Source: a virus
IMG/VR virus record: IMGVR_UViG_3300023110_000035
Span: 1 to 62,417 of that record
DNA: 62,417 nucleotides
Reading direction: 5' to 3' (one strand)
Part shown: positions 37,501-60,254 of the stretch, piece by piece
Numbering within the stretch: position 1 is the first letter of the stretch
Layout: every line of letters starts with the position of its first letter
Position numbers and translations under genes: made by a program
Notes under the pieces: model-generated
The model's input: the letters and a program-made list of their open reading frames with translations, nothing else
Database searches by the model: none
Told to the model about the DNA's origin: nothing

Positions 37501-40500
37501 ATTTACTAATAATTTATTAGGGTCAATTACAGCTTCACCAGAACCAGATACAATTTTATCTAATTCTAAGTCTTGAAGTGCTTCCGCTGGGATATTGAAT
37601 AATCCACCACCATCACCTTCGAAGAATGATGCCGATATTGATTCTGAAATAAATACTGAACCACTAAATTCTGATTTTACTGAACCAGTAGATGATAATT
37701 GGAATAATCCAGATTCATCAACCGATGCGGTTACCGAACCAGTAGCAATTCTATCAGCATCAAATGCTAAGTTAGCAATTGATATATTTGTTAAACCACT
37801 ACCATCACCACTAATTACTCCACCAACATTTAATGATTGTGAAATTTCTACTGAACCACTAAATTCTGATTTTACACCACCAGCCGTATCTTCAACAATA
37901 AATCTTCCATCTTCTTTGGTAGATGCGGTTACAGAACCAGTTACAATTTGGTTTACATCAAATGCTAAGTTAGCAAGTGAAATATTTGTAAGACCAGAAC
38001 CATCACCAGTAATAACTCCACCAAAATCAATTGATTCAGATACTTTTAATGAACCACTTAATTCAGTTGTTACTGAAGATGTTGATTCTACTCTAAAGAA
38101 ACCATCATTAGTAACCGATGCCGTTACTGAACCTGTTACTAATCTATTTACATCAAATGATAGGTTTGCTAATGAGATATTAGTTAACTGAGAACCATCA
38201 CCTTGAAATGAACCACTAAATGAACCACTAAGTTCTAAATCTTCTCTTGTATTTTCCCATCTCTGAGAACCACTCTGCCAAACTAATAAATCACCATCAT
38301 TTGATTTAATTGAACCACTATCAACTAATATAGCATCATTTGTAGTAATTTCTACATCATGTAAATCATATAGATGGTCTCCTAAATGGGGTCTAACTAA
38401 TAAGGTTACATTCACACCATTTACTGCAGTTACAGCAGCTATTGTAGATTTTAAGTTTGGAGCTACTGGTGTTACGTTTGTTAAACCACCTGGTCTTAAT
38501 GGGTCTCCATAAAGTATATCACCTTCAGACCAAGTTTGTGAACTATCTTTTAAGTTGGCATTTTGTAATGTAGTTGTATTTATATCTCTAACATACCCAA
38601 ACCAAGTTGCAAATCCTTCGTTGTTATTTGGTATGGTTTCGGTGATAATACCTACTAAGTAATTTTCTGCATAACTTCCAGAAGTTTCTGCCTTTACAAC
38701 CCTTAATCGATTACCTTGTGCAGGTTGAGTAGGGTCTATCATTACCAATGTACCATTTAGTAAATCTCCCCCATCTTTATTTATAACAGGTGGATAATAA
38801 AGTTCTTGTCCTATTTGTTGGGTAGCTAATCCACCCTTCATTCCTAAATCAAGAGTACCATCGGTTTCATTCCATTTTAATCTACCAGGTATACTTGGAT
38901 TATCTTCATCAAAATTAATGAAATCTAAATAAGATGCGGTAATTGATGATGCAGTAATATGATTTGCTACTAATTTTTCAGTAGTTGTTGTATCAGTAAC
39001 GTTTAAATCATTTGTTACATTTGCATCTAATGTAGTAATTGTTTGAGTTACTTTTAAATCAGCTTCAACTCTTACATTATCTTTTAAATCAGTTCTACCA
39101 TCAAATACAATATTTGCATTAGATGGTTCTTCACTATAAACTTTTGCAATACCACCCATTCCAGTGTGGTTGATACAATAGTAATAAAGTGTAGTTGGAG
39201 TATCTGATGTAACATCAATTATTACTCTTGAACCACTATTTCCAGCAGCAATACTTCCAGTATCAACGCTACCAGTATATACCGAACCACCATTGTGAGT
39301 ACCATCTAATGTAGTTGAAAATCTTAAATCATGCGTATCGTTGGAACTACCACTTTGCCAAATAGTATATGTTGAACCAACTAAAAATTCTAATTTTGGT
39401 TGTTGTTCATCATCAATAAAGTATTTGTTACCACCATCAGCTGATTGTACTTCTACAACTAATGTGGTATCATCTACAAATGGTTCATAAGATGCCGATA
39501 CTAAAAATGCTCCAGAAGCTTGAGTTTCACCATCTATAAATAACCCACCAGTAATGGCTGCTATTGAATTTACTTCAAATCCTTTATTTGGAGAAACTGA
39601 TGCGGTTACAGAACCACTTGCTATAAATGAACGAGGAAGTACATCTTCAGCGAGTGCTGAAAGTGGAATATTAAATAAATCTCTACCACTACCACTAAAT
39701 GAACCACTAAAGTCTCCTAAGAATTTACTAGCACTTATTTCATTAGCTGTTATAGTGTTAGATACATCTAAATTACCAGTTACAAATGTACTACCTGTTA
39801 TATTTAGATTACCAACTACCTCAGTATCACCAATTAAATCAATTTGTCCGTATAGTGGTATTTCATCAACTATATTAAATTCACCACCCATTGCAAGGTG
39901 ATTTTCACAATTATAATAAAGTGTATCAGGAGCTGAACCAGAAACTACCCATGTGATTGTATCATTATCAACACCATTATTTGTTATTACACTACCACTA
40001 TATTCAAATCCAGTTCCATCAGAATTTTGAGTTTTTATGTAGAATGGGTGTGCTGGTGCATTTACGTTAAATGTGTAAGTTAGTCCTCTTACAATTGTAA
40101 TAGTTGGATTATCACCATCTACTCCACTAAATCTATATGAATTAGCACCATCATTGGTAATAGTAAATGAAGTATTCAACGAACCAGTATCAACAAATCC
40201 GTTTGATGATGATACTATGAAACTACCTGTTATTCTTACATCATCCTCTAAGTTAGTTGTTGTATTGACTACAAACCCTAAGTTGGGTGAAATGGATGCA
40301 GTAGCAGAACCACTAGCTATTCTCTTAGCTTCCTCAGCGAACTCAGCCGCAGGTAAGTTGGTTAATTGAGAACCATCACCCACAAAGAATGATGCCGATA
40401 CCGTACCTTCACTTGCAGTAATATCAGTACCAACTTTAAATCCTTCATTTACATCTAAACTTCCACTAATTCTAACTGAACCAGTTAATTCAGAACCACT

Positions 40501-43500
40501 CTCCGATGATTCTACAAAAAATCCTCTATCAGGTGATACAGATGCACTTACACTACCACTTGCAATTCTAAATGCCTCTTCAGTAAGTGCTGATTGTGGA
40601 ATGTTAAATAAACCACTACCATCACCAGTTATAACACCATCTACATCTAATGAGTTAGTAACAAATACTGAACCTGTAAATTCTTGTCTATTATCTAAAT
40701 TATTTCCAAATGTGTTTGAACCAGAAGATGTAATTACAACTGAATCTATAAATGTTACATTTAACTCTCTAGCATTTATAGCTCCACTTACATATAAATC
40801 ATTATCAATTGTTAAATCACCTTCAATAGAACCAGAAGTATTTACTACAAATCCAAAATTAGGTGAAATAGATGCTGTTACAGAACCACTAGCAATTCTT
40901 GGAGAATCTTCTGCTAATGCTGATTGAGGAATATTAAATAATCCAGCACCATCACCTTTAAAAATACCATCATTTATTTGAACATTTCCACTTACGAAAA
41001 GTGAACCAGTAAATAACGAACCACTATCTAATGATTCTACTACAAATCCTCTATCTGGGTCAGTTGATGCAGTTACAGAACCACTACCGATTCTTGGTGC
41101 ATCTCCACTAAGAGATGTAAATGGTATATTATTAAGTTGTGAACCATCACCAGCAAATGAACCAGAAAATGAACCAGTAAATTCTTCTGAAGTGATAATC
41201 GTAGCATCTAACTCATCTACATTAATCTTACTAGCAGTTAAATCATTTGAAATTACTACAGAACCAGTTATATCAATACTACTTGTAAATTGAGAACCAC
41301 TACCAGCATTTACGATAAAGAACTCTCCACTTTCAACCGATGCCGTAGCAGAACCACTAGCAATTATAGGAGATTCTTCAGCTTGTACATTTGTTAATTG
41401 AGAACCATCACCAATGAAAAATTTAGAAGTAATTGATTCTGAAACAAATACAGAACCACTAAATTCTGATTTAGTAGTTCCAGTAGAATCTTCTACTCTA
41501 AATATGTTACTACCAGATTCAGGCGGTACTACTATCACCGATGCAGTAATAGAACCACTTGTAATATTATTTGTAAGTAATGCATCTTCAGTTAATGCTG
41601 AACGAGGGATATCAAATAAATCCCTACCACTACCACTAAATGCACCACTAACTTCATTACCAATAAATCTATCAGCTGTTACATCATCAGCAACTTCGAC
41701 ATCTTTAGCAAATACCGTAGTTGATGCTGAAATACTAGCATCAAATGTTGCAGGTACATTTACTTGTAATCCTAAGTTTGGAGAAACCGATGCCGTTGCT
41801 GAACCAGATGCGATTCTTGGTGAATCACCAGAAAGTTGTGCAGCTGGAATATTAAATAATCCACTACCATCACCTTGGAAAAGTGATGCGGTTATTGAAG
41901 ATGATATAAATACTGAACCACTAATTCTTGTACTATCACCTAATTCAATAAGTGATACTTCAGCTTCACCTGGAGTTTGTTCTGCTTTTACAAATAATCC
42001 ACCAGTAATTGTTGTGAATGTATTTACATTCATTCCACCATCTGGATTAAGAGAAGCAGTAATTGAACCAGTTGCTATTAAATTTGATAATAATGCATCT
42101 GGTGCTAATGCTGAACGAGGAATATCAAATAAACCTTCACCACTACCACTAAACATAGATGCGGATAAACTACCACTTACTCCAAGAGAACCACTTAATT
42201 CAGTTCGTATTTCTTTTCTAGTTGTATCTTCTACTCTAAAAATACTTGGTTCATCTGAACCTGATTTGTATAATAATGAAGCCGATACTGAACCACTAGC
42301 AATTCTAAATGCTTCTTCTGATAATGCGTTTAATGGTATATTGAATAATCTACTACCATCACCTTCAAATGATGAACTTATAATTCCACTTGCGGTTACA
42401 TTACCAACAATCTCAGTTTCACCAATTAATGTTTGTTTATCTTCAGCTGAATCACCAAATATATTTGAACCAGATGAATAAACAATCGATGATGAAATAA
42501 AGTTTGTATATAATTCGTTTGTTGTAATTCTACCCGTTACAACCAAATCACTATCTATTCTAACATCTTGCTCAAATAATGAAGATGTATTAACTACAAA
42601 TCCTAAGTTTGGAGAAACGGATGCAGTTGCTGAACCACTTGCAATTCTAAATGCTTCTTCAGTTAATGCTGATTGTGGAATATCAAATAATCCAGCACCA
42701 CTACCACTAAACATGGATGCTGATACTGGGAATTCAAATGTTGAGAATGTATTAACTACAAATCCTTCATTTGGTGAGATTGATGCGGTTGCTGAACCAC
42801 TACTAATTTTGTTAATATCAAATGCTAAAGCTGATTCCGGTATATCCGTTAGCCCAGCACCACTACCACTAAATACCGATGCAGAAACTCCACTTTCTAC
42901 AAACACCGAAGAACTAAATTCTGCTCTATTAGTACCTTCTAATCTAAATCCAAATACTGGGGATACTGATGCCGTTACCGAACCACTAGCTATGAATGAT
43001 GAAAGTAATGCATCTTCAGTTAATGCACTTCTTGGAATATCAAATAAATCTCTACCACTACCACTAAATACCGAACCTGATGATAGTTTTACATCACCGA
43101 AGAATGTTGAACCACTTTCTATCGAAGTTACTACAAATCCATCTTCTGGGTTTGTAGATGCGGTAATTGAACCACTAAATATTAATGAAGTATCTAAATC
43201 TACAATAGCAGCTACTGGAATATCAAATAGTTTAGCACCACTACCACTATAAGATGAACCACTTTCTACTCTAACTTCTCCAAAGAATGTTGAACCACTA
43301 TCAATTGAAGTTACAACAAATCCATCTTCTGCATCAACCGATGCGGTTACTGAACCAGAAGTAATCTTACTTATTTCAAAAGAAAGTGCTGATTCTGGAA
43401 TATCAAATAAGTTAGCACCACTACCACTAAATGAACCACTAAATTCCCTTGCTTCAATTGATTCGGATACAAATAACGAAGAACTAAATTCTGCCCTATC

Positions 43501-45260: not shown

Positions 45261-46124
45261 TTATTCGTTAGCAGTTTCTAATATAGATAAAACCACAGTT
45301 AAATCAGTAGAACCAGAAAAAACTAGTCCATAATCCTCTTCTAATACTAATTTACCAGCTACAACAGGTGAAAATGAATCTCCTTGAGGTATTGGGAAGT
45401 TTGTTACAAACTCTACTGGAGTTTGTATGGCTGTTACCGGGTCCTCAATTGTGTCTGATATTACATTAAATAGTTGATTTATGATATTTGATGAACCACT
45501 TTCTGCAATTAAATTAGTGTTTATTGATTGTGTTACGCTAGATTGATATAATCTATCCACATCATTGGAACCTGTTACTGATTCATTTAAAATAATTTGG
45601 TTAGCAAGTGTCTTTGTGTACTTTACCGCATCTATTGATGCTGTTATTTGACCTTCTGGAATTAATAAAACCCCATCCTTATCGTAGAAAGATAATGCCG
45701 CTTTATTAGTTCTAATAGTACTACCACTATTAATCATATCAAAAGTTACAGCGTTTATAGAAGTTTCTGCATAACCTTCAAATCTTGATGATGAAAATCC
45801 AAATGGAATTTCTTGAAGATTATTATTAAATCTAGTATAAGCCGCTACTTCTTTTTCAATGAAAGTTTTATTCTCAGTTATCAATGCTGATGATGAGAAG
45901 AAACTACCTGAATTATTGATACCGCTTACTTGTGGAATTGGTAGAATCCTATTAGGTGCTAATTTGATTACAACCTCTTCGGTTTGTGTACCATTATTAG
46001 TAATTTGTGCCGATAATACAATGGTAGAAACACCAGTCGGTGCCTTATACACCTGGTCTTCTTCACCAGTCAAAGTTGCAACTACCGATTTAAATGCGTT
46101 TAATGGAATTAGTTCATCTGCCAT
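45261..46124 (-). CDS. SVLEI-type beta protein with an inserted helical repeat (287 aa)
   Basis: The ends match the 110-aa protein at 29435-29767: residues 10-55 (FKSVVATLTG, VYKAPTGVSTIVLSAQIT) and 243-284 (FPIPQGDSFSPVVAGKLVLE, LTVVLSILET). Between them, residues about 84-182 look like one copy of the helical repeat of the neighbouring 4695-aa fibre: ENKTFIEKEVAAY, then NAVTFDMINSG and QITASIDAVKYTKTLANQII. The Cys-x-Arg-Asp core of that repeat is missing. It lies between the two largest fibre genes and has a TATTTATA element 19 nt upstream. A connector between fibres is a reasonable inference, not shown. Confidence 0.65.
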   Translation of the reverse strand: MADELIPLNAFKSVVATLTGEEDQVYKAPTGVSTIVLSAQITNNGTQTEEVVIKLAPNRILPIPQVSGINNSGSFFSSSALITENKTFIEKEVAAYTRFNNNLQEIPFGFSSSRFEGYAETSINAVTFDMINSGSTIRTNKAALSFYDKDGVLLIPEGQITASIDAVKYTKTLANQIILNESVTGSNDVDRLYQSSVTQSINTNLIAESGSSNIINQLFNVISDTIEDPVTAIQTPVEFVTNFPIPQGDSFSPVVAGKLVLEEDYGLVFSGSTDLTVVLSILETANE

Positions 46125-46166: not shown

Positions 46167-49100
46167 TTAACCTTCCAGAGCTAGAGAGAATGGTGTAACT
46201 AATGAGAATAATGAACGGGAGAATGTTCTACCCTGCAATGTACCAGTTGCCTGATTAATTACAAGTCCCGTACCAATCTTAAAGTCACCGAGTTCGTTAC
46301 CGGCGGTAAAGAATACTCTACCCCCACCCAATTCAACAATTTCTTTATCTGGGTCTGGTACACCATTACCACCTTGATTAGGAGGTAATGCTTTATATGT
46401 TACACCAGAACCAGCATATGAGAAATCATGTCCAGTAGTAATAATTAGTGAACCAAATAATTCCAATGGTGCATTTCTAGCAACTTTTTGGAATAATGTT
46501 CTTAAATATCTATTTGTTTCTGCCGTTTCTTTCTTTTGTTCTTCGATTACTACACTAGCATCACCATAAACACCTGTATAGTATGATTTAGCAGCTTCAA
46601 TACTTCGTTCATTACCACCATACAATAAATCAGTTGAAATAGCATCTAATATAAATCCAGTATCTCTATAACATTTTTCTTCGTTATATTCAAATCCTGG
46701 GAATGCCGCTTCAGTATATGAAATTGCTGATGATTGTAAAAACTTTTTGGCTGCTCTTAAATCAGCGTAACCATTTCTTCTATTCAAACCAGCAAATGTT
46801 AATTGTTCTTGCTTAATAACCTTTTCAGCTATTCCTTTAGCAAAATCAATACCATCAATGGTTTGTGGTTTTTGTTCGGTAATTGCTACCGATGGAATAT
46901 AGTAATAGAATGTAGCCGCCTGAATACTTCTCTCATTACCACCATATACCAAGTCGGTTCTTACTGCATCTATAATGTATCCCAAATCTCTACTACAACT
47001 TACTTCATTATATGGGAATTCACTCCAAGATGAAGATAAGAATGCAATAGTTTCTTTTTGAATAAATGTTTTGTTATCAACTAATAAATTAGCAGCAACT
47101 AATGTAGAACCTGATGGTGAATTCCACTCAACATTTTGTATTACATTTTGAGCCAATCCACTAGCATATTTTATACCTGTTGTTGTTGGGTCTAATTGAG
47201 CAACTTCAGATGGAGTTCCTCTTTCAGTTGCGGATGATGGATATAAGAAATAATAGTTACCAGCAATAACACTTCTTTCATTACCGCCATATAATAAATC
47301 AGTTGCAGCTGCATCTATAATGTATCCCGTATCTCTTCTACACTTATCTTCATTATAATAAACACCACTCCAAGATGAAGATACATATTGAATTGTTTCT
47401 TCTTGTATAAATGGTTTATTTTTTCTTAATAAATCAAATGATGCAGATACTTCGGCTGATGCTGTTACAAATTGTATATTTTGTAATAATGCTTCTGAAA
47501 TTCTTCCAGCATATTTTATACCATCAGTTGTTTGGTTTGCTTGAATTGTTGTTGCTTCAGATGGATATAGGTAATAGAATTCACCCGCTACTTTACTTCT
47601 CTCATTACCACCATATAAGAAATCAGTTGCAACTGCATCTACGATATGACCCACATCTCTAGCACATTTATCTTTATCATATTCAAATGTACTCCAACTA
47701 GCAGTTAAATATGCTAATGATTCTGATTGGATAAATGTTCTATTGTTTAATAGAGATTCATTACCAGCAATTCTTTCTGCTGATGGTGATTCAAATACAT
47801 TGTTTACAATTATATTTTCAGCAATATCACCAGCGTAGTTGATACCAGTTGTAGTTGGGTTAAGTTGTGTTGTTGTTGCAGATGATGGGTATTTGTAATA
47901 GTAATTACCAGCAATAACACTTCTTTCATTACCACCATATAATATATCAGTAGCAATAGCATTTATAATATGTCCAATATCTCTTTTACAAGTTTCTTGA
48001 TTGTAATCAAAATCACTCCAAGAAGATGATAAATAAGCAATTGATTCATCCTTAATGAAATCTTTGTTACTTCTTAACAATTCCCAAGAAGAAGATACCT
48101 CAGTTGTTGGTTCGACAAATTCAATGTTTTGAATTAATTTCTGAGTTATTCTACTAGCATAGAATAAACCATCTAATGTTTGTTCAACTTGAGAACCAGT
48201 TCCATTAGCTTCAGATGGGAATTCGTTGTAGAATTTACCATTTACAATAGATGCTGAATTTGAATTCCAAATTAAATCTTCAGCCGCACCAGAGATAATT
48301 AATCCAGTATCTCTTCTACACTTTTCTTCGTTATAATCAAAATCTGCCCACGAAGAAGATAGGTAAGCGATAGTTTCATCTTTAATAAAATCTAAGTTAT
48401 TTCTTATAATTTGATAAGCAGCTATTGTATTAGCATCAGTTGATGGTGTTGTATAATTACCAGCAGTTTCATATGAACCAGTTCCATCTACTACAATTGT
48501 AGTTACGATATCAATAGATGATGATATGAAATCTACATCTGATTGATTAGCTGATATTGAGCCAGTGTATTGAGTACCACCCATTACCTTAATGTTATTA
48601 TCAACATTTAAACTAGCTGATGGGATTGGTAAAGTATTCTTATCAATCAATTCACTTACTAACTTAGATGCGTAAATTACTGCATCAGTAGTTTCACCCA
48701 ATTGTGAAGTTGTTGCTTTAGATGGGAATTTATAGTAGTATTGCCCAGCTACTATTGAACGTTGGTTACCACCCCATCTTAAATCAGTTGCAACTGCATC
48801 TACGATGAATCCGGTATCTCTACTACAACTTACTTCGTTGTATTGTAAGTTTGGATATTTAGCGTTTACAAATGCTACAGTTTCCGCTTGAATGAATTCT
48901 CTATTTTCTCTAATTGAATCATAAACAAATTCAACTTCGTTTGATGTGGTTTGGAATGTAGAACCACTAACCAATTCTAATGCTAATGATTTAGCGTAAT
49001 TGATACCAGTTACCGTTGGGTCTTTTTGTTGGTCTACATTTGGTACACCACCTACAATTGCCGCTGATGGATATTTGTAATAGTAATCACCCGCAATAAC

Positions 49101-52100
49101 ACTTCTTTCATTACCATTGTATTTTAAATCGGTTGCTACCGCATCTACGATGTATCCAATATCTCTCTTACATTTGGATTCAGAGTAGTAGAAATCACTC
49201 CAAGAAGAACTTAGATAAGCGATTGTTTCATTTTGAATAAATTCTTTATTTTCAAACAATAAGTTGTATGATGCAGATACTTCATTCGATGCAGTTACAA
49301 ATGTTCTATTTCTAACAATGTGTTGTGCTAATGTACTAGCATAGTTAATACCATCTAATGTTTGTTGTAATTGAGAACCAGTTGCTTGTGATGGATATTC
49401 TAAATAGAATTTACCATTTACTACCGATGCTGAATTAGAGTTCCAAATCAAATCCTCAGCTGCACCAGAGATAATTAAACCAACATCTCTCTTACACTTA
49501 ATATCATCATATTCAAATGTACTCCAAGAAGATGAGATATAAGCCACAGTTTCTTCTTTGATAAACTCTAAGTTATTTTTTAACAATTGATAAGCTAACT
49601 TAGCTTTTGGAGAATCAGATGGAGTTGTGTACTCAATAATAGCTGGTGCCGAACCACTACCATTTTCAATAATATCAGTTACAATAGCTACTGATGAAGA
49701 AATAATTTTAGCTTGTAATTTATCAGCAGCTGATGATGAGATATATTGTGGTGTGTTTGTTACTTTTATTAAATTATCTATATCAGTATTATTTCTTATA
49801 ATAGATGGTTTTTGTGATAATCCATTTTCTACTATATTAGAAACTATTCCAAATCTATTTTCAACAATTGAAAATTCATTTGCTGAAGCTGATACTGAAG
49901 ATGAATATTGCGTTGTATTAGTAAATTTACGTTTGTTGTAAGTATTATCAACAAAATCATCAATTGATGATGTTGTGTTCTCAATAATATCATTAATTAA
50001 TGAGAATGATTCAGATACTAATGTTTTTTCAGAACTTACAGTGTAATCACCACTAGCAGTTACATATGAAGATGTAGTTAGTTGTTGTGGTGTGTCTAAC
50101 TCAGAAGTTTGGAAATGCTTAGCGATAGTAAATGGAATATCATCAGAACCTAATCTAATAATATCGTTAATCATATCAATACTAGCTGATATAATTCCTA
50201 TCTGAGTTTGTGAACCATTATATGATTCAGTAACTTGTAATGTATCCGTTACTTTAGTTAGTGAATTAACATTTCTAATTTCGTATGGTAAAGTACTTAC
50301 AGAACTTAGTTCAGTTCTAACAAATGTATGATTTGATTGAGGTAAGTGTTTAATTGCTCCATCAGATGCTGATACAAATGTGTGAAGTGATTGTGGTTCA
50401 TGCTTAACTGCTCTATTAGATGCAGATACGAATGTGTGTAACGAACCAGAAGCACTTCCAGCATCACCCACATTGATTGTAAATGTACCATCTTGTCTTT
50501 CCAATCCATCGTTAGTTGCTGATACAAATGTATGTGCTCCCACATATGGAGATGAACCAATATTAATATCAAATGTATTTGTAGTTACATTTGAAATCTC
50601 TAACCATCTTCCACTTGGATAATCGTAATTAGGTCTTGGATAAGATTTTGTAGTTGTATTACCATCCAATACACAAGTATAAGTTAGAGAGTTATCATCC
50701 AATTTGATGTAATCTCCATTACTAAATCCATGTGATGTGATTGTTATTGTAACATCACCAGTTGCCGAATCATAAGGTGCATCAGTTACAGTATGAGAGG
50801 TTGTACCAACTGAAGTAATTACAATTGATTTTCCTGCATATGGGTCTGAACCTGGTCTTGGATAAGAATGAGTTGTAGCATCATTATCTTGGTCACAAGT
50901 AAATGCAAATGATTCATCTTCTAATACTACACTTCTACCAACACCCAATCCGAATGATTCACTAACAGTCAATATCATATCTCCACTTAAAGCGTTGTAA
51001 GATGCAGATATAGGTGTGAAATATTTATTCGGACCTGATGCTCCTACATTAAATGTCATTGTAGTATCAGTTACAGCCGTAAGAGGAATTGAACGAACTG
51101 CTTTAGGGTCTATACCAACTCTTGGGTATGATTTAACTGATTGGTTATCATCCATATCACAAGTGAATGCGAATGATTCAGCTTCCATAATAACACCCTC
51201 ACCCACACTTAAACTATGGCTTTCCACAGTTACTACAAAATCACCAGTTGCTGGGTCATAAGTTGCGTTAGTTGGATTAAATTCTACATTTGGACCTGAT
51301 TTACCAACATTTACAGTTATAGTATTCGTTGTTACAGATTGTATTTCCAGTCTATTGTTATAAGCAGGTTGTCCAATTGATGGTAAAATGTGTTCAGTTC
51401 TATTACCATCCATATCACAAGTAAATGTGAATGAATCTGGTTTTATATAGATACCATTTTTATTAGTTAATGTGTGATTTGCAATAGTCATTACAAAATC
51501 ACCAGTAGCTGGGTCATATGTTGCATCCGTTGGAGTAAATGATTTTATTCCATCGGTTATAATCCCATTAACCATTTCAAATGATGAACTTACTTCATTT
51601 AAGTTACTACCACTAATAGCCATAGAACCACTATATTGTGGAACACCATCAATTTTGATATGATTTTCACTATTAAAGATAATTTTAGGTCTTTCTAATA
51701 TTTCGTTAAGAACAACACTATTTAAAACAGTCTCAGCGTATCTAATTCCTTCTACTGTTTCCTTTAATTGGAATGTAGTTGCTTGAGATGGATATCTATA
51801 ATAGTAATCACCAGCGATGATACTTCTCTCATTTCCTCCCCATAGTAAATCGGTTGCAACTGCATCTATTATAAACCCAGTATCTCTCTTACATTTTTCT
51901 CTATTGTAAGTAAAGTATGGATATAAACTATCAATAAATTCAACAGTTTCCGATTGAATCATTGACCTGTTGTTTCTAATTCTATTATAAGATTCTAATA
52001 GGTTACTATCAGGATTTACTAATAGTGTATTTTGAATAATTTTTTCTGATAATCCAGCTGCATGTTTTACACCAGTAATTGTTTGGTCTAATTGAGTAGT

Positions 52101-55100
52101 TGTTGCTTCAGATGGATATCTATAATAGAACTCACCCGCTACTACACTTCTCTCATTACCACCATAAACTACATCAGTTGCGATAGCATCAATAATATAT
52201 CCAACATCTCGTTTACATTTAGATTCTATATAATCAAATGTACTCCAAGAAGAACTAATGAAATGAATAACTTCATTTTGAATTAATTCTTTATTATCAA
52301 TTAATAAATCTTTAGTTGCTAATCTTTCCAATGAAGATGTTACTAGTGTTGTATTATTAATTAATTTATTTGTTAATCGTTGTGCGTAAGTAATACCATC
52401 AATAGTTTGTACTAATTGTGAACCAGTTGCATCTGATGGATATAGATAATAGAATTCCCCAGCGTTTACTGCTCTTTCATTACCACCATATACGAAATCG
52501 GTTACAACCGCATCTATAATATATCCAGTATCTCTTCTACATTTAGCTTCATTATATTCAAAAGTACTCCAAGAAGAAGAAAGGAATTGAATAGTTTCTT
52601 CTTGTATTAAACTTCTATTTTCAGAAATTAATTCTGCTACTCCTAACGTTTGTAATTCAGGTAATTGTAAAACTTCATTTTGAAGTATCTTATTAGATAT
52701 TCTTCTAGCGTAATTAATTGCATCAACAGTTTGATTTAATTGTGAACCAGTTGCTGCAGATGGATTACTATAATAGAAAGATGCTGCTTGTACTGAACGT
52801 TCATTACCACCATATAAAATATCAGTTGCTGCTGCATCTATAATATGCCCAATATCTCGTCTACACAATATATCAGAGTAAACGAAATCACTCCAAGATG
52901 ATGATATGTATTCAATCGTTTCATTTTGAATTAATAACTTATTATCTAACAATAATTGATGTGAAGCAGATGCTTCAGTAGATGGTTCTACAAATTCAAT
53001 GTTTTGAATTAACTTCTGAGTAATTTTACTAGCATATTCAATACCATCTAATGTTTGATTTAATTGAGATGTTTCAGCTTGAGATGGGTATTCTAAATAG
53101 AACTTACCATTTACTACCGATGATGATACCGTACCCCAAATTAAATCTTCAGCCGCACCAGATATAATTAAACCAATATCTCTACCACATTTAACTTCAT
53201 CATACGAAGCTGTACTCCAAGACGATGATAAGTATGCTAAACTTTCAGATTGGATAAATGAAATATTATTTCTAATAATTTCGTATGCAGCTATTGTTGA
53301 TTCATCGGTTTGAGGTCCACTTCCAGTATCATATAAACTAGCAGTGTATGAACCAGATGTACCCAATTGTACCATATTGTAAACTATCGATACCGATGAT
53401 GATACAAAACTAACATTTTCTAATGTACCACTTACCGAAGATGAAATGTACTGAGGTACATCGGTTACTTTTATACTAGCTGATGTATTATGAATTTCAT
53501 TAGGTAAACTACTTACTGAATTTTCAGTAGTTCTAACAAATGTATGATTTGATTGAGGTAAATGCTTTACTGCTCCATTTGATGCTGATACAAAAGTGTG
53601 AACCGATTGAGGTTCGTGCTTAACAGCTCCATTGGATGCTGATACAAATGTATGGATTGAACCAGAAGCACTCCCAGCATCACCTACATTAATTGTAAAC
53701 GTACCATCTTGTCTTTCTAATCCATTCGATGTAGCAGATACGAAAGTATGAGCTGCTGTATATGGAGAAGAACCAATATTAATATCAAATGTGTTTGTAG
53801 TTACATTAGAAATTTCTAACCATCTACCTGATGGATAATCTATTCCAGTTCTTGGATAAGTCTTTTGAGTTGTATTACCATCTAATACACAAGTGTATGT
53901 TAGTGAATTATCAGAAAGTTTAATGTAATCACCATTACTAAATCCATGTCCAGCTATTGTTATAGTGACATCTCCGTTTGATGCGTTATAAGGTGCATCG
54001 GTTACAGTATGAGAGGTTGTACCAACTGATGTAATTACAATTGATTGTTCAGCGTATGGGTCAGAACCTAATCTCGGATAAGAGTGAGTAGTTGCGTTAC
54101 CATCCATATCACAAGTAAATGCGATAGATTCGTTTTCTAATACTACACTTCTACCAACACCTAAACCAAATGATTCAGAAACAGTTAAAATCATATCTCC
54201 AGTCAATGCGTTATAATCAGCATTTGTTGGAGTAAAGTATTTATTAGGACCCGATGCTCCTACGTTAACAGTCATTGTAGTATCGGTGATTGAAGTAATC
54301 TTCATTGAACGACCAGCATAAGGGTCTATACCTAATCTAGGGTAAGATTTAACTGATTGGTCATCATCCATATCACAAGTGAATGCAAATGATTCAATAT
54401 CTAATATAATCCCCTCACCAACACTTAAACTATGAGTACCAGTTGTAATTACAAAATCACCAGTTGCAGGGTCATATGTTGCGTTAGTTGGATTAAATTC
54501 TACATTTGGACCCGATTTACCAACATTAACAGTTATAGTATTATCAGTTACCGATGTTATTGGTAATTTATTAGTATAAGCTATTTGACCAACTGATGGT
54601 AGATTGTGCTCAGTTTTATTATCATCCATATCACAAGTGAATGTGAATGATTCTGGTCTTAGGTAAATACTATCAGAAACACCATAACTATGATTTTCAA
54701 TAGTCATTACAAAATCACCAGTAGCAGGGTCATAAGTTGCATTGGTTGGGGTGTATCCCATACCATTTTGTAAAACATCAATAACAATTGCATAGGATGA
54801 ACTTACATTATTTAGTTCATATTCAGATGGTGTTATTGAAGATGTAATTTGTGATGTATTTGTTACTTTTATTGAACCAGATGTATTTTCAACAATAGTT
54901 GGTAAAGTACTTACCGAATCTTCGCTTGTTCTAACAAAGGTGTGGGTTGATTGTGGTAAATGTTTAATAGCTCCATTTGAAGAAGATACAAATGTATGAA
55001 CTGATTGTGGTTCATGCTTTACAGCGTTTGCTGAAGCTGATACAAATGTGTGTAAAGAGTTTGATGCCGTTCCACCATCTCCTACATTAATTGTAAATGT

Positions 55101-58100
55101 ACCAGTTTGCCTTCTTATACCACCATTAGTTGCGGATACAAATGTATGAGCTCCAGTGTAAGAAGATGAACCTATGTTAATATCAAATGTATCAGTTGTT
55201 ACATTTGAAATTTGTAACCATCTTCCACTTGGGTAATCATATCCAGCTCTTGGATAAGATTTTTCAACAGTATTACCATCCAATACACAAGTATAGGTTA
55301 ATGCTCCATCATCAACTTTAACATAATCTCCATTACTAAATCCATGCCCAGCGATAGTTAAAGTTACAATCCCAGTAGATGCATTATAAGGAGCATTTGT
55401 TGGTGTATGTTGAGTATTTCCAACTGATTTAATTTCTATCGATTTACCAGCATATGGGTCTGAACCTGGTCTTGGATAAGAATGAGTTGTTGCATCTGAA
55501 TCTTGGTCACAAGTGAATGCAAATGATTTATCCTCCAATACTACACTTCTTCCAACTCCCAATCCATGTTGTCCAACAGTTACAATCATATCACCAGTCA
55601 ATGCGTTATAAGATGCGGATGAAGGAGTAAAGTATTTATTCGGACCTGATGCTCCAACATTAAATGTTAACGTAGTATCAGTTACCGAAGTAATTGGAAT
55701 AGAACGAACTGCAAACGGGTCAATACCAACTCTTGGATAAGATTTAACTGATTGGTCATCATCCATATCACAAGTGAATGCAAATGATTCTGGTGAAAGT
55801 ACAATACCTTCTCCAACACTTAAAGTATGATTCCCAACAGTTGCAACGAAATCTCCAGTTGCTGGGTCATAAGTTGCGTTAGTTGGATTAAATTCAATGT
55901 TTGGACCTGATTTACCAACATTTACAGTTATAGTATCATCGGTTATCGAAGTTATAGTTAATTGTTTGTTGTATGCGGGTTGTCCAACTGAAGGTAATTT
56001 GTGCTCAGTTCTATTACCATCCATATCACAAGTGAATACGAATGATTCTGGCTTTAAGTAAATTCTATCACCAACATCTAAACCATGTTGAGAAACAGTC
56101 ATTACAAATTCACCATCAGCTGGATTATAAGTTGCTGCAGTTGGTGTAAATGAATCTACACCATTTTTCAATATTTCTATTGTAGTTGCAAATGATGAAC
56201 TAATTTCATGCGATTCATCAACCGAAGCACTAAATGAAGATGAATATTGAGATATGTTTGATATCTTAATATTATCAACATTGTTAGTAGTTATTTCAAC
56301 AAATCCTTTAGATGGAACTTCAATATATCTTTGAGTATCCGAAATTGGTAAATTATCAACCACATTGATAATACCACTAGCAGATACATTATTACCATTT
56401 ACATAATATAATCTATCTGGTGCTTCTAATGGAACAATAAATGTTAAAGTTCCAAAGTTTACACCATTATTAGTTACACCCTCATTATAAAGAGCTTCTT
56501 TATCCGGCTTCCTAGCGGTTTTAATATAGAATGGATTTAAATCGTATTTTAAAGCATTTACTGAGAAGGTGTACATTTCACCCCTCTTCAATGTTAAAGT
56601 TGGGTCTTTAATACCATCTCTGAATGAACCTGTATTTTCAACTAAATTGAAGTAACCTCCAGCGGATACACCATCAAACTCATCTAATTGTGCTTGATTT
56701 AAAATATAGTAATCACCAGTTTCTGGAGTAATAACTTCATAGTAAGTTGAGGTATCAAAAGAACCACTCAAACTTAAACTACCAGAAGTACCATATCTAA
56801 TGATATCGATAATATCTGAAAATGAAGATGATACTTTTAATGATTCACTAACTGATGAAGTTATAGAACCTGTAATTTGTGTATCACTTCCAAATTTAAT
56901 ACCAGCATCTGTATTTTCAACTAAATCAAAAGTTGGTATTATTGTAGTTGTTACTGTTTTTGCTAAACCATCACCATAAGAATCTTTAGGAATACCAATA
57001 GTAGAAATTGGGTCTCCTATTTGAGATTCAGGCACTGGAGCTGAACCAGTTCCGATTGTTTCTTCAGTTACAATAGAACTACCACTTTCAATAATTTTAA
57101 TTACAGTATCAAAACTTCCAGATATATCATCAAAAATAGATGAACTAATTGATGTTGATACAGAAGCTGTTACTTGTAATATTTCGGATACGTTTAATGG
57201 GGATGTTACACTCCAATCAAAACTACCTGTATTTTCAGCTATTGCTGATAATATGGAATCATTTCCAAATCTAATAATATCTTCAACTATACCAACCGAA
57301 CCACTTATGTGCTTTGATTCAAATTCAGTACCACCCATTGATGATGTTACATAATCAACATCACCAACTTTAATTCTTTTATTAATGTTTAATTGTTGAC
57401 TTGGTATTTCTAATAAGTTGGATTTAGCAACTTCACCTACAAATCCCTTAGAATATCTTATACCTTCTAATGTTTCTTCTAATTGAGTTGTATTAGCAAT
57501 AGATGGATATGAAAAATAGTATAAACCTGCGTTTTGAGTTCTTTCTACACCACCATATTTTAAATCAGTAAGTACTGCATCTAAAATGTATCCAGTATCT
57601 CTCTTACATTTTACCTCATTGTAAGAAAAGTTTGGATATGTTGTATTGATATATGTAATCGTTTCATTTTGAATTAAAGAACGATTTTCAAATATAGTAT
57701 CAATTACCTCTAATGTTGATGAAGATTGAGTTACAAAAGTTATATTTTTAACTAATTTTTCAGCAAGTCTTTTAGCATAATTTATACCATCAATTGTTTG
57801 GTTTAATTGACCATCTGTATTTGATTGGAAATTAACTGTAGCGTTTGATGGATATTTGTAATAGAAATTACCAGCAATAACACTTCGTTCATTACCACCA
57901 TATTTTATATCAGTTGCAACCGCATCTATAATATATCCAATATCTCTAGCACATTTAGCTTCATTATAATCAAATGTACTCCAAGAAGATGAAAGATATG
58001 CAATTGATTCAGATTGAATAAATCTTTTATTTTCAAATAATAATTCGTATGCATTATCAGCTTCAACAGTTGTTTCTTGGAATGTTATATCAGCAAGTAT

Positions 58101-60254
58101 ATTATCAACAACACCAGCTGCATATTTTATAGCAGTAAGTGTTGGACTTTTCTGAATAGTTGTTGCCTCAGATGGATATAGATAATAGAAGTTACCATTT
58201 CTTACCGATTCCTCGTTTCCACCAAATAATAAATCATGTGCTGCGCCACTAATGATATATCCTAAATCTCTTTCACATTTAGATTCAGAGTAGTAAAATT
58301 CACTCCAAGAAGATGAAAGATATGCAATCGTTTCTTTTTGAATAAATGGTATATTTTCTTTTAATAAAGTATATGCATTTTGATAATCAATTGTTGGGTT
58401 TTCAAAAGAAGAACTTTCAACTATTGTTGGTGCTGAACCTGTTCCATTATCTAAAATATTATAAACTGTTGAAAATGATGAACTAACTATTTCCCTAACA
58501 TCTAATGATGCACTTAAATCAGTTATATACTGAGAAGTGTTTGTTACTTTATATGATTCCGAAGTATTAGTTTCAATATCAGGTATAACATCAACACCAT
58601 TTTTAATAATCGAAATAACAGTATCAAATCTACTACTTATTGTATTTTTAGTATCATCAGTTACTGCTGATGTTTTGTATTCATCAACCCCAGTTACTTT
58701 AATTGGAGGGTTATCAGGAGTTGGAATTAAGCTTTCTACGTTTCCAACATTATCTACATAAGTATATGATGATGTAGCTGCGTTACCTCTTTCAATTATA
58801 TCTAAAACAATATCATAATTAGAGTTGATTGTATTTAAATCAGCTTCAGATGCCGTAGTTGATGAAGTTATTTGATTATCACCACTAACATTCCATATTG
58901 AACCTGAGTTATATCCCCTATCCGATGATAATGCTAGAATAGGAATCTTATCTTCAACTCCTCTTTCAATAAGATTAGATATTAATCTATAATCAGATAC
59001 AACTGTTTTTGCATCTTTATCTTTTGCTTGTGCACCTGTATTGAATATTTGTAATTCATCAGTTACCTTAATACCATCTTCGGTATTTGTAACTAAATCA
59101 GGAATTTCATCCAACCCCCTTTCAATCGTATCAACGATGATAGAGTAATTATCTTGTACATTCAAAAATGCCTCAGTATTACCACCACTACCAGTGATAA
59201 AACGAGAACCAGAAGCATACATACCAAAATCACCAAATGAGGTGTTCGAGTTAAGTAATACTGCTTGTCCACCATCAATTACCTTTACCGAGTATGCTGA
59301 GAAGTTTGTAAAGAATGATACTAACTGAATAAATCCTCTACCTACAACTTGACAACCAACACCATTAGGTGCAACCTGTGTATATGCATCCAATACCATT
59401 GATGCAAGAGGTGAATCTGGATGGATTCTATTACCATCTACATTCAATCCACCACCACCAGCAGGAATATCTTCATATGCTTCTAAGAATGAGTTTTCCT
59501 GATTGGAAATCATTGAACAGTTCTGAACATAAGGAGATGTTGTAATAAATGCGTTTGGAGCAAATGATATTGCAAAACCTTTCTGGGAATCATCAACTGA
59601 TGGAAATACTCTTAATCCAGCAAAAGTCATCTCTGCTAAATAGTTACCACTATTTACCCAAAATAAATCTTCGTTTTCATTCTTAGCAACAACTTTGGTA
59701 ACCCTTAAACCAGCTCCCCAAACAGTTGTGTTTCTTGGAAGTTCAACTGGATTATCTTCTAAGTAAGTACCAGCTTGTACATCAATTCTAAAACCAGTAA
59801 AGTTAGAACCAGTAGGTAATCCATATCTACCATCATCACCAGGTGTTACAATTTGAGCAGCTCTTTTTATTGTTTTTACAGGAAATTGAGGTGAACGTCC
59901 ATCATTGGAATCATCACCTCTAGTAGCAGATACATAAACTGTTGCATCACTACCTCCGAATTCTGCTACTGGAATACCACCAAATCTTTGAGTATCAACT
60001 GATACATCGGAAAAGGATGCCGTAGCATCTAATCTACTTTCTGCTCTAGCAAATGTTAAATCACCATCAATATTAACCGAACCAGTAATTTCAACTGAAC
60101 CTGTTATTATTTGTGGTGTAGTTAAATCACTTCCTATATTAATTGATTGAGATACTAATAAAGAACCTGATATGGAGACGTTATTATTTACGGATATGGA
60201 ATCCTTAAAAATATTTACTTCTTCAATCTGCTTTTGTGGTATTAATCTAGCCAT
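46167..60254 (-). CDS. Giant tail fibre/virion protein with beta-helix start and alternating repeat arrays (4695 aa)
   Basis: Residues 1-95 hold fibre-type strands (VSISGSLLVSQSINIGSD). Residues about 100-360 look like a right-handed beta-helix: VYVSATRGDDSNDGRSPQFP, then KTIKRAAQIV and GTYLEDNPVELPRNTTVWGA. After that, 17 helical repeats (core C-x-RD-x-G) occur in four arrays, and 12 beta repeats (core FTCDMD) in three blocks. Linkers of the type SSSFDTVISIIKNGVDVIPD separate them. A cupredoxin-like module without ligands sits at about residue 1180-1315. The C-terminus has ITTGHDFSYAGSGVTYKALP, VELGGGRVFFTAGNELGDFK and RTFSRSLFSLVTPFSLALEG, an ending I know from large structural proteins of T4-like cyanophages. 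The start is ATG at 60254, 2 nt after the 127-aa gene. No S74 end is seen. Confidence 0.82.
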   Translation of the reverse strand: MARLIPQKQIEEVNIFKDSISVNNNVSISGSLLVSQSINIGSDLTTPQIITGSVEITGSVNIDGDLTFARAESRLDATASFSDVSVDTQRFGGIPVAEFGGSDATVYVSATRGDDSNDGRSPQFPVKTIKRAAQIVTPGDDGRYGLPTGSNFTGFRIDVQAGTYLEDNPVELPRNTTVWGAGLRVTKVVAKNENEDLFWVNSGNYLAEMTFAGLRVFPSVDDSQKGFAISFAPNAFITTSPYVQNCSMISNQENSFLEAYEDIPAGGGGLNVDGNRIHPDSPLASMVLDAYTQVAPNGVGCQVVGRGFIQLVSFFTNFSAYSVKVIDGGQAVLLNSNTSFGDFGMYASGSRFITGSGGNTEAFLNVQDNYSIIVDTIERGLDEIPDLVTNTEDGIKVTDELQIFNTGAQAKDKDAKTVVSDYRLISNLIERGVEDKIPILALSSDRGYNSGSIWNVSGDNQITSSTTASEADLNTINSNYDIVLDIIERGNAATSSYTYVDNVGNVESLIPTPDNPPIKVTGVDEYKTSAVTDDTKNTISSRFDTVISIIKNGVDVIPDIETNTSESYKVTNTSQYITDLSASLDVREIVSSSFSTVYNILDNGTGSAPTIVESSSFENPTIDYQNAYTLLKENIPFIQKETIAYLSSSWSEFYYSESKCERDLGYIISGAAHDLLFGGNEESVRNGNFYYLYPSEATTIQKSPTLTAIKYAAGVVDNILADITFQETTVEADNAYELLFENKRFIQSESIAYLSSSWSTFDYNEAKCARDIGYIIDAVATDIKYGGNERSVIAGNFYYKYPSNATVNFQSNTDGQLNQTIDGINYAKRLAEKLVKNITFVTQSSSTLEVIDTIFENRSLIQNETITYINTTYPNFSYNEVKCKRDTGYILDAVLTDLKYGGVERTQNAGLYYFSYPSIANTTQLEETLEGIRYSKGFVGEVAKSNLLEIPSQQLNINKRIKVGDVDYVTSSMGGTEFESKHISGSVGIVEDIIRFGNDSILSAIAENTGSFDWSVTSPLNVSEILQVTASVSTSISSSIFDDISGSFDTVIKIIESGSSIVTEETIGTGSAPVPESQIGDPISTIGIPKDSYGDGLAKTVTTTIIPTFDLVENTDAGIKFGSDTQITGSITSSVSESLKVSSSFSDIIDIIRYGTSGSLSLSGSFDTSTYYEVITPETGDYYILNQAQLDEFDGVSAGGYFNLVENTGSFRDGIKDPTLTLKRGEMYTFSVNALKYDLNPFYIKTARKPDKEALYNEGVTNNGVNFGTLTFIVPLEAPDRLYYVNGNNVSASGIINVVDNLPISDTQRYIEVPSKGFVEITTNNVDNIKISNISQYSSSFSASVDESHEISSSFATTIEILKNGVDSFTPTAATYNPADGEFVMTVSQHGLDVGDRIYLKPESFVFTCDMDGNRTEHKLPSVGQPAYNKQLTITSITDDTITVNVGKSGPNIEFNPTNATYDPATGDFVATVGNHTLSVGEGIVLSPESFAFTCDMDDDQSVKSYPRVGIDPFAVRSIPITSVTDTTLTFNVGASGPNKYFTPSSASYNALTGDMIVTVGQHGLGVGRSVVLEDKSFAFTCDQDSDATTHSYPRPGSDPYAGKSIEIKSVGNTQHTPTNAPYNASTGIVTLTIAGHGFSNGDYVKVDDGALTYTCVLDGNTVEKSYPRAGYDYPSGRWLQISNVTTDTFDINIGSSSYTGAHTFVSATNGGIRRQTGTFTINVGDGGTASNSLHTFVSASANAVKHEPQSVHTFVSSSNGAIKHLPQSTHTFVRTSEDSVSTLPTIVENTSGSIKVTNTSQITSSITPSEYELNNVSSSYAIVIDVLQNGMGYTPTNATYDPATGDFVMTIENHSYGVSDSIYLRPESFTFTCDMDDNKTEHNLPSVGQIAYTNKLPITSVTDNTITVNVGKSGPNVEFNPTNATYDPATGDFVITTGTHSLSVGEGIILDIESFAFTCDMDDDQSVKSYPRLGIDPYAGRSMKITSITDTTMTVNVGASGPNKYFTPTNADYNALTGDMILTVSESFGLGVGRSVVLENESIAFTCDMDGNATTHSYPRLGSDPYAEQSIVITSVGTTSHTVTDAPYNASNGDVTITIAGHGFSNGDYIKLSDNSLTYTCVLDGNTTQKTYPRTGIDYPSGRWLEISNVTTNTFDINIGSSPYTAAHTFVSATSNGLERQDGTFTINVGDAGSASGSIHTFVSASNGAVKHEPQSVHTFVSASNGAVKHLPQSNHTFVRTTENSVSSLPNEIHNTSASIKVTDVPQYISSSVSGTLENVSFVSSSVSIVYNMVQLGTSGSYTASLYDTGSGPQTDESTIAAYEIIRNNISFIQSESLAYLSSSWSTASYDEVKCGRDIGLIISGAAEDLIWGTVSSSVVNGKFYLEYPSQAETSQLNQTLDGIEYASKITQKLIQNIEFVEPSTEASASHQLLLDNKLLIQNETIEYISSSWSDFVYSDILCRRDIGHIIDAAATDILYGGNERSVQAASFYYSNPSAATGSQLNQTVDAINYARRISNKILQNEVLQLPELQTLGVAELISENRSLIQEETIQFLSSSWSTFEYNEAKCRRDTGYIIDAVVTDFVYGGNERAVNAGEFYYLYPSDATGSQLVQTIDGITYAQRLTNKLINNTTLVTSSLERLATKDLLIDNKELIQNEVIHFISSSWSTFDYIESKCKRDVGYIIDAIATDVVYGGNERSVVAGEFYYRYPSEATTTQLDQTITGVKHAAGLSEKIIQNTLLVNPDSNLLESYNRIRNNRSMIQSETVEFIDSLYPYFTYNREKCKRDTGFIIDAVATDLLWGGNERSIIAGDYYYRYPSQATTFQLKETVEGIRYAETVLNSVVLNEILERPKIIFNSENHIKIDGVPQYSGSMAISGSNLNEVSSSFEMVNGIITDGIKSFTPTDATYDPATGDFVMTIANHTLTNKNGIYIKPDSFTFTCDMDGNRTEHILPSIGQPAYNNRLEIQSVTTNTITVNVGKSGPNVEFNPTNATYDPATGDFVVTVESHSLSVGEGVIMEAESFAFTCDMDDNQSVKSYPRVGIDPKAVRSIPLTAVTDTTMTFNVGASGPNKYFTPISASYNALSGDMILTVSESFGLGVGRSVVLEDESFAFTCDQDNDATTHSYPRPGSDPYAGKSIVITSVGTTSHTVTDAPYDSATGDVTITITSHGFSNGDYIKLDDNSLTYTCVLDGNTTTKSYPRPNYDYPSGRWLEISNVTTNTFDINIGSSPYVGAHTFVSATNDGLERQDGTFTINVGDAGSASGSLHTFVSASNRAVKHEPQSLHTFVSASDGAIKHLPQSNHTFVRTELSSVSTLPYEIRNVNSLTKVTDTLQVTESYNGSQTQIGIISASIDMINDIIRLGSDDIPFTIAKHFQTSELDTPQQLTTSSYVTASGDYTVSSEKTLVSESFSLINDIIENTTSSIDDFVDNTYNKRKFTNTTQYSSSVSASANEFSIVENRFGIVSNIVENGLSQKPSIIRNNTDIDNLIKVTNTPQYISSSAADKLQAKIISSSVAIVTDIIENGSGSAPAIIEYTTPSDSPKAKLAYQLLKNNLEFIKEETVAYISSSWSTFEYDDIKCKRDVGLIISGAAEDLIWNSNSASVVNGKFYLEYPSQATGSQLQQTLDGINYASTLAQHIVRNRTFVTASNEVSASYNLLFENKEFIQNETIAYLSSSWSDFYYSESKCKRDIGYIVDAVATDLKYNGNERSVIAGDYYYKYPSAAIVGGVPNVDQQKDPTVTGINYAKSLALELVSGSTFQTTSNEVEFVYDSIRENREFIQAETVAFVNAKYPNLQYNEVSCSRDTGFIVDAVATDLRWGGNQRSIVAGQYYYKFPSKATTSQLGETTDAVIYASKLVSELIDKNTLPIPSASLNVDNNIKVMGGTQYTGSISANQSDVDFISSSIDIVTTIVVDGTGSYETAGNYTTPSTDANTIAAYQIIRNNLDFIKDETIAYLSSSWADFDYNEEKCRRDTGLIISGAAEDLIWNSNSASIVNGKFYNEFPSEANGTGSQVEQTLDGLFYASRITQKLIQNIEFVEPTTEVSSSWELLRSNKDFIKDESIAYLSSSWSDFDYNQETCKRDIGHIINAIATDILYGGNERSVIAGNYYYKYPSSATTTQLNPTTTGINYAGDIAENIIVNNVFESPSAERIAGNESLLNNRTFIQSESLAYLTASWSTFEYDKDKCARDVGHIVDAVATDFLYGGNERSKVAGEFYYLYPSEATTIQANQTTDGIKYAGRISEALLQNIQFVTASAEVSASFDLLRKNKPFIQEETIQYVSSSWSGVYYNEDKCRRDTGYIIDAAATDLLYGGNERSVIAGNYYFLYPSSATERGTPSEVAQLDPTTTGIKYASGLAQNVIQNVEWNSPSGSTLVAANLLVDNKTFIQKETIAFLSSSWSEFPYNEVSCSRDLGYIIDAVRTDLVYGGNERSIQAATFYYYIPSVAITEQKPQTIDGIDFAKGIAEKVIKQEQLTFAGLNRRNGYADLRAAKKFLQSSAISYTEAAFPGFEYNEEKCYRDTGFILDAISTDLLYGGNERSIEAAKSYYTGVYGDASVVIEEQKKETAETNRYLRTLFQKVARNAPLELFGSLIITTGHDFSYAGSGVTYKALPPNQGGNGVPDPDKEIVELGGGRVFFTAGNELGDFKIGTGLVINQATGTLQGRTFSRSLFSLVTPFSLALEG
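46490..48430 (-). repeat. Helical repeat array 4 (six copies) of the 4695-aa protein
   Basis: Six copies of a ~100-residue unit with core FIQxETIAYLSSSW - YNExKCxRDxGYIIDAxxTD - YGGNERSVxAGxYYxxYPS. The first copy is of the LIISGAAEDL type, four are of the SSSWS/DA type, and the last is of the FPGFEY type. It leads into the C-terminal domain. Confidence 0.8.
48640..49610 (-). repeat. Helical repeat array 3 (three copies) of the 4695-aa protein
   Basis: Three copies: a starting LIISGAAEDL copy, one interior SSSWS copy and a closing KYPNLQY copy. They are followed by the linker LPIPSASLNVDNNIKVMGGT. Confidence 0.8.
50290..51550 (-). repeat. FTCDMD beta block C of the 4695-aa protein
   Basis: About 420 residues. 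Four beta repeats in fixed order (FTFTCDMDGN..LPSVGQ; FAFTCDMDDN..YPRVGIDP; FAFTCDQDND..YPRPGSDP; LTYTCVLDGN..YPRPNYDYPSG) are followed by four HTFV mini-repeats. It is similar to blocks A and B at the DNA level. Confidence 0.8.
51690..53310 (-). repeat. Helical repeat array 2 (five copies) of the 4695-aa protein
   Basis: Five copies: a starting LIISGAAEDL copy, three interior SSSWS copies and a closing LYPYFTY copy. They are followed by the linker ILERPKIIFNSENHIKIDGV. Confidence 0.8.
53500..54765 (-). repeat. FTCDMD beta block B of the 4695-aa protein
   Basis: About 420 residues with the same four beta repeats and four HTFV mini-repeats, in the same order as blocks A and C. It is next to block A, separated by a short KVTNTSQITSS-type linker. 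Confidence 0.8.
54900..56157 (-). repeat. FTCDMD beta block A of the 4695-aa protein
   Basis: About 420 residues with the same four beta repeats and four HTFV mini-repeats, in the same order as blocks B and C. The first repeat reads YNPADGEFVMTVSQHGL instead of YDPATGDFV. Confidence 0.8.
56310..56720 (-). other. Ligand-less cupredoxin-like module in the 4695-aa protein
   Basis: The sequence reads DPTLTLKRGEMYTFSVNALK, NPFYIKTARK, GVTNNGVNFGTLTFIVPLEA, then PDRLYYVNGNNVSASGIINV. It aligns with module 1 of the 4577-aa fibre (HPFYIKT, LYYNCENHLAMGG), but His, Cys, His and Met are replaced by Asn, Asn, Asn and Ala. The fold is therefore kept and the metal site is lost. Confidence 0.6.
57430..58400 (-). 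repeat. Helical repeat array 1 (three copies) of the 4695-aa protein
   Basis: Three copies: a starting YIISGAAHDL copy, one interior SSSWS copy and a closing TYPNFSY copy. They are followed by the linker LLEIPSQQLNINKRIKVGDV. Confidence 0.8.

Follow-up and report, generated by a model that had tools for sequence, protein, structure and literature searches.

Putative polar arrays of phycobiliprotein-like modules in the tail fibre of a T4-like phage

The window analysed here is a stretch of viral DNA of 62,417 nt (IMG/VR record IMGVR_UViG_3300023110_000035, positions 1 to 62,417) and encodes on the minus strand, at 46167..60254, a protein of 4695 aa in which the motif C-x-RD-x-G occurs 17 times. 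The locus raises the questions of what these repeats are, what sets the outer copies of each group apart, and whether the motif is kept for structure or for a ligand. An earlier note on this DNA had counted 17 copies in four arrays of 3, 5, 3 and 6, and the same count was found in the open reading frame. The best overall explanation, with a probability of roughly 0.6, is that the tail fibre contains polar arrays of phycobiliprotein-like modules; the repeats would be units that share the phycobiliprotein-like (bilin-binding globin) fold and follow one another in a fixed direction.

The protein matches PHROG 5342 'tail fiber protein' (E=0) as well as PHROG 4527, and its gene lies in a tail gene cluster with gp15, sheath and baseplate hub genes nearby; these matches and this position mark it as part of the tail fibre in a T4-like myovirus. 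A Pfam scan of the whole protein and of 22 array segments gave weak, scattered and unrelated matches only, and a sequence search of PDB chains gave no match. All features given next are on the minus strand. Array 1 (57399..58385, aa 624-952) comprises three copies with the motif Cys at aa 660, 768 and 883; array 2 (51684..53297, aa 2320-2857) five copies with Cys at aa 2356, 2464, 2572, 2680 and 2788; array 3 (48618..49601, aa 3552-3879) three copies with Cys at aa 3587, 3695 and 3810; and array 4 (46461..48428, aa 3943-4598) six copies with Cys at aa 3979, 4089, 4197, 4305, 4420 and 4528. The period is 108 aa, or 110 or 115 where small inserts occur. Array 4 is followed by a conserved C-terminal domain (46170..46457, ..GTLQGRTFSRSLFSLVTPFSLALEG; PHROG 17885), near-invariant in 22 relatives. 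The next gene (45261-46124) contains a single degenerate repeat (45576..45893) in which the motif Cys, Arg and Asp are lost, and its homologues in relatives likewise carry a degenerate repeat devoid of the three residues.

Other repeated elements were identified around the arrays. The linkers (aa 370-600, 960-1150, 3480-3540 and 3890-3930) contain a recurrent short module, 'IKVTN..QY....SSSF..V..II..G', predicted as one 20-residue helix, and three copies of a block of roughly 400 aa (FTPTxAxYxPxTGD...) lie between arrays, at aa 1370-1780, 1830-2250 and 2900-3320. Two further giant proteins of 4577 and 3781 aa are encoded on the minus strand of the window (31513-45246 and 18078-29423) and comprise long low-complexity, collagen-triplet-like SSGTSG/GGSSGTSG stretches and SGSGxGLFDIP repeats.

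The copies fall into three subtypes according to their place in the array. The four first copies (58068..58385, 52980..53297, 49287..49601 and 48105..48428 for arrays 1 to 4) all combine SSSW, one of them as SSSWA, with ISGAA; in that of array 1, Trp28 is present and Thr51 and Arg60 are absent. The nine interior copies all combine SW (SSSW, with TASW in one) with D/N-A-x-x-TD. The four last copies (57399..57716, 51684..51998, 48618..48935 and 46461..46781) all combine Y/F-P with DA-x-x-TD; in that of array 1, YP replaces WS and Thr51 and Arg60 are present, and that of array 4 has FP. The chance of placing four 'first' and four 'last' labels exactly so among 17 copies is 6e-7. The start, interior and end subtypes described by the earlier note are thus exact in all 17 copies of the window, but the literal ISGAA form is looser in homologues, where several first copies read DGVAKD, DAVAND, VNGAAHD or ISSSAHD. 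On account of first copies with DGVAKD or DAVAND, ISGAA was dropped as a universal start mark in favour of the absence of Thr51 and Arg60. In a marine clade, NG was found at one interior position.

Homologues were collected by two scans of viral contigs, which gave about 100 loci, and the polar cap, interior and cap grammar proposed by the note is kept in these related contigs almost without exception. Column analysis placed the differences between first and interior copies at states 13, 44, 47, 48, 51, 59, 60 and 64, and those between last and interior copies at states 25-31 and 82. In a tally of 582 distinct copies (667 in a looser tally), Trp28 of SSSW is present in 446/446 copies that are followed by another copy and in only 2 of the 136 that are not; Thr51 and Arg/Lys60 are both present in 444 of the 446 copies with an upstream neighbour, and neither is present in 134 of the 136 lacking one. 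Exceptions are confined to L093, L076 and L079; the gap threshold used to separate arrays accounts for two of these exceptions. The array-length outliers L077 (8 copies) and L093 (1 and 2 copies) were rejected as artefacts of the same threshold. The note had proposed a tree as a check, and in trees of 365 copies subtype does follow array position: the position labels need 5 changes, or 15 once the diagnostic columns have been taken out; shuffled labels need at least 132. Array position decides subtype, as in a capped tandem-repeat array, and does so in the homologues too. As a pattern the two-sided joint code is practically beyond doubt.

That this code reflects physical contact between neighbouring modules is likely. 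Trp28 of one module would pack against the Thr51/Arg60 face of the next, and the start and end copies would be modules with one face switched off, the end face keeping the ancestral Y/F-P. Solitary copies from cyanophages bear on the direction of change: they lack Trp28, mostly lack Thr51 and Arg60, and have Tyr28 and Pro29 as their commonest state. Because of this, and judging by sequence comparison, the Y/F-P of the end cap appears to be the generic state, common to solitary copies and phycobiliproteins, and SSSW a derived, joint-specific feature.

Copy number varies in two ways. Homologous proteins contain as many as 25 copies, grouped in arrays of 2-7, and arrays consisting of a first and a last copy with zero interior units occur among them. 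When the window arrays are compared with the longer ones of L043 and L046, caps align with caps: the 7-copy last array of L043 has one interior copy with no counterpart in the six of the window, and the 7-copy array 2 of L046 and L050 has two extra interior copies relative to the five of the window. L043, a close relative, also has two whole arrays absent from the window. Both gain or loss of interior units and turnover of whole arrays therefore occur. The earlier view that length changes through interior units while caps stay fixed holds for these three loci and is incomplete, since whole arrays are also gained and lost. An adjustable spacer or bundle, as it also suggested, is at best part of the story, because the outer arrays hardly vary: the first has three copies in complete proteins and the last usually six.

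A capped solenoid in which fixed caps and interior gain or loss tune the length of the fibre is a tenable but tentative reading, somewhat short of even odds. It agrees with relatives differing in length by interior units only and with the conservation of the caps; the coming and going of whole arrays and the nearly constant length of the first, penultimate and last arrays speak against it, and it leaves the invariant C-x-RD unexplained. It is compatible with phycobiliprotein-like modules and does not replace them. A generic helical bundle did not hold up, as the predicted fold and the C-x-RD match phycobiliproteins instead.

The fold was predicted with AlphaFold2 for array 3 and its linkers from 23 sequences (model m705e413950d6; pLDDT 77, pTM 0.72), which gave five helices per repeat. 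In a Foldseek search of the PDB, the confident matches of this model were phycobiliproteins only, with probability about 1.00 and TM 0.55-0.74 on the target, at E-values of 0.2-1 that are not significant alone. The model of array 4 was weaker (pLDDT 68, pTM 0.45), and its listed matches above probability 0.5 were phycobiliproteins and one designed fluorescent protein only. The Foldseek viral library added nothing beyond confirming the cyanophage relatives. The globin-like helical core of the bilin-binding globin superfamily is present in the prediction; helices X/Y and separate alpha and beta subunits, as in light-harvesting phycobiliproteins, were not found in the predicted repeats.

Sequence comparison was made against 32 phycobiliproteins taken from cyanobacterial genomes, starting from a phycocyanin beta query matching PDB 4f0t_B. 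Profile-profile scores were 55.3 for cyanophage copies, 39.4 for last, 34.1 for interior and 27.2 for first copies. Among 500 decoys the top scores were 18.4 against the cyanophage, 19.5 against the last and 22.2 against the interior copies, and reversed phycobiliproteins scored 12. The decoys were single sequences, as the set of family-profile decoys numbered only 9. In the profile alignment, the C-x-R-D of the repeat falls on the bilin-attachment site Cys84-x-Arg86-Asp87 and the end-cap Y/F-P on the phycobiliprotein 'KFP'. Last copies align over 92 columns, from phycobiliprotein helix B to helix G. With C-x-RD-x-G masked, scores drop to 17-26, about the decoy level, so the sequence case rests mostly on the motif and the alignment register, and the fold prediction is the main independent support. 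The PF00502 cut-off of 22.2 bits was not reached (best 14.8 bits, in a lax search that matched 3/5 repeat-bearing records and also unrelated controls), and PF00502 was absent among the Pfam matches of the 22 array segments.

The loss of most sequence signal on masking and the Foldseek E-values above 0.1 would suit an unrelated all-helical module whose C-x-RD-x-G resembles the phycobiliprotein motif by chance. Such convergence is improbable: models of two different arrays both give phycobiliproteins as confident PDB matches, the alignments that are left once the motif is masked stay in register, the spacing from Cys to GG is 18 residues in the phage repeat and identically in CpcA, and among isolates the repeat is confined to cyanophages, in which it was found in 239 records. 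A relationship of the repeat fold to phycobiliproteins is very probable.

The cyanophage proteins with the same C-x-RD repeat are tail or baseplate proteins, identified in S-PM2, S-RSM4, S-CAM1 and P-HM2 gp7 (PHROGs 5342, 701 and 4527). One distant relative, L031 (2701-11601), carries 14 copies, most of them solitary and about 160 aa apart, which alternate between two types, GLIVDS..QSTFAGLQYW and GYMLDS..NRQAVQSGVYYY. The array-bearing uncultivated phages look like phages of Bacteroidota, as suggested by secreted-protein signals and GroEL-linked operons.

Each repeat has one Cys, which lies within an invariant C-x-R-D where the predicted third helix begins and is in register with the bilin-attachment site; a CXRD at this position is a feature of most phycobiliproteins and of two bilin biosynthesis-associated globins, BBAG-1 and BBAG-3. 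Conservation of the Cys, Arg and Asp is 100% among 291 non-redundant array copies, 288 of which contain exactly one Cys, and 96, 94 and 98%, respectively, among 48 cyanophage or distant copies. Across 59 diverse copies the invariant residues are the Cys, the Arg, the Asp and one Tyr only. Whether the Cys-x-Arg-Asp holds a covalently attached linear tetrapyrrole (bilin) is evenly balanced. If bilin is bound, the tails would carry up to 17 per chain. In the lineage of the window the phage would make the tetrapyrrole with a heme oxygenase and a ferredoxin-bilin reductase of its own, and in cyanophages it would come from host or host-plus-phage enzymes.

The genes for such a supply were found in the same genomes. 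The array-bearing contigs of at least 134 kb that were tested, near-duplicate fragments left out, are G001, G002, G004, G023, G044 and G045 (134-274 kb), and all six carry a bilin reductase and a heme oxygenase. Since G044 and G045 may be nearly identical records from a single lineage, the number of independent genomes is probably five and no more than six. G001 is a close relative of the window, with sheath and gp15 both 95% identical. The reductase was not found in array contigs of 80-131 kb nor in G003 (168 kb), which are probably incomplete records; G003 and G014 (126 kb), with arrays and no reductase, are read as fragments because they share matching repeat loci with G002 and G001, respectively. 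In 3/3 array contigs read directly (L232 2887-4061, L233 2647-3788 and L234 2398-3556), the heme oxygenase and reductase genes overlap in the manner of an operon. The pair adjoins GroES/GroEL in L232 and L233, and an invariant Glu51, His62 and Asp79 may, by spacing only, match the catalytic residues of PcyA. Reaction-centre genes of the psbA type were not found in G001, G002, G003, G004 and G014.

Arrays were not found in several large bilin-reductase phages (G037 of 453 kb, G040, G050, G038, G030 and G025), and weak repeat matches in three further array-free ones (G028, G049 and G053) lack the Cys. The latter are L311 (G028), L312 (G053) and L313 (G049), each with a single stretch 'STIKDSGLLIDAIxxDLL' in a protein of 700-1240 aa. 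Relatives by tail sheath or GroEL gave no useful set of large array-free genomes as a control, so the co-occurrence of arrays and bilin genes may partly reflect shared ancestry. Among cyanophage isolates with the repeat, 8/10 examined carry the lyase-family gene cpeT, and P-HM2 also encodes heme oxygenase and bilin reductase. In S-CAM1 and S-RSM4, cpeT (L034 12743-13279 and L038 9617-10141) is found upstream of the tail gene with the repeat, at a distance of about 2 kb or less. CpeT of G002 was rejected as a lyase for the tail on account of an apparent signal peptide.

Pigmented virions, in which the tail-fibre repeats covalently carry bilins that the phage itself makes with its heme oxygenase and bilin reductase, stand just below an even chance. 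It is also possible, if doubtful, that the reuse is structural only: the modules would descend from the bilin-binding globin fold and act as rigid spacers, and C-x-RD would be retained because folding or assembly needs it, not a pigment. A joint code this strict, together with an interior copy number that varies, fits a spacer, large bilin-reductase phages devoid of arrays exist, and the degenerate copy in the next gene suggests that the fold may not need the Cys, Arg and Asp. However, a sole, free and fully conserved Cys beside an invariant Arg and Asp is hard to explain by folding alone, and heme oxygenase and reductase genes are present in the same genomes.

Large aquatic phages are reported to carry cassettes of hemO with PcyX or PcyA; the use of the product in such hosts was called enigmatic, and a bilin-binding globin (BBAG) was named as one possible acceptor (PMC11480375). 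For the enigma of phycobilin-making genes in phages of apparently non-photosynthetic bacteria (PMC11480375), the tail repeats are put forward here as a concrete acceptor candidate, encoded in genomes that also carry such genes and having one invariant Cys each. If the pigment is real, the unexplained bilin genes of aquatic phages gain their acceptor, and the bilin would have its role in the virion and not in host light harvesting; light response, screening, redox and attachment are examples of such a role. The open-access literature yielded no description of phycobiliprotein-like domains in phage tails. The repeats give very common, unexplained cyanophage tail proteins a predicted fold and a possible pigment site, and their two-sided residue code is a simple one by which modules would be linked into polar arrays.

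Repeat proteins of the ankyrin, TPR and HEAT type carry distinct first and last units, as the phage arrays do; the phage repeats differ from them in predicted fold, and their caps differ at the apparent joint face. The cyanophage tail proteins share the repeat, but their copies are mostly solitary with other sequence between, have no Trp28 and mostly no Thr51 or Arg60. In the hemO cassettes of aquatic phages no acceptor or tail protein was identified (PMC11480375). The BBAGs are phycobiliprotein paralogues that bind bilin independently of a lyase, BBAG-1 and BBAG-3 carrying CXRD, and co-occur with heme oxygenase and bilin reductase (Rockwell 2023, PMC10151467); compared by description only, they are separate cellular proteins of bacterial gene clusters, whereas the phage repeats lie inside a virion protein. 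The phycobiliproteins CpcA and CpcB (PF00502) share with the phage repeat the helical core, the C-x-R-D at a helix start, the preceding F/Y-P and, in CpcA, the Cys-GG spacing; the phage repeat differs from them in having no X/Y helices, in its length of about 108 against about 165 aa, in its tandem arrangement within one chain and in being part of a phage tail.
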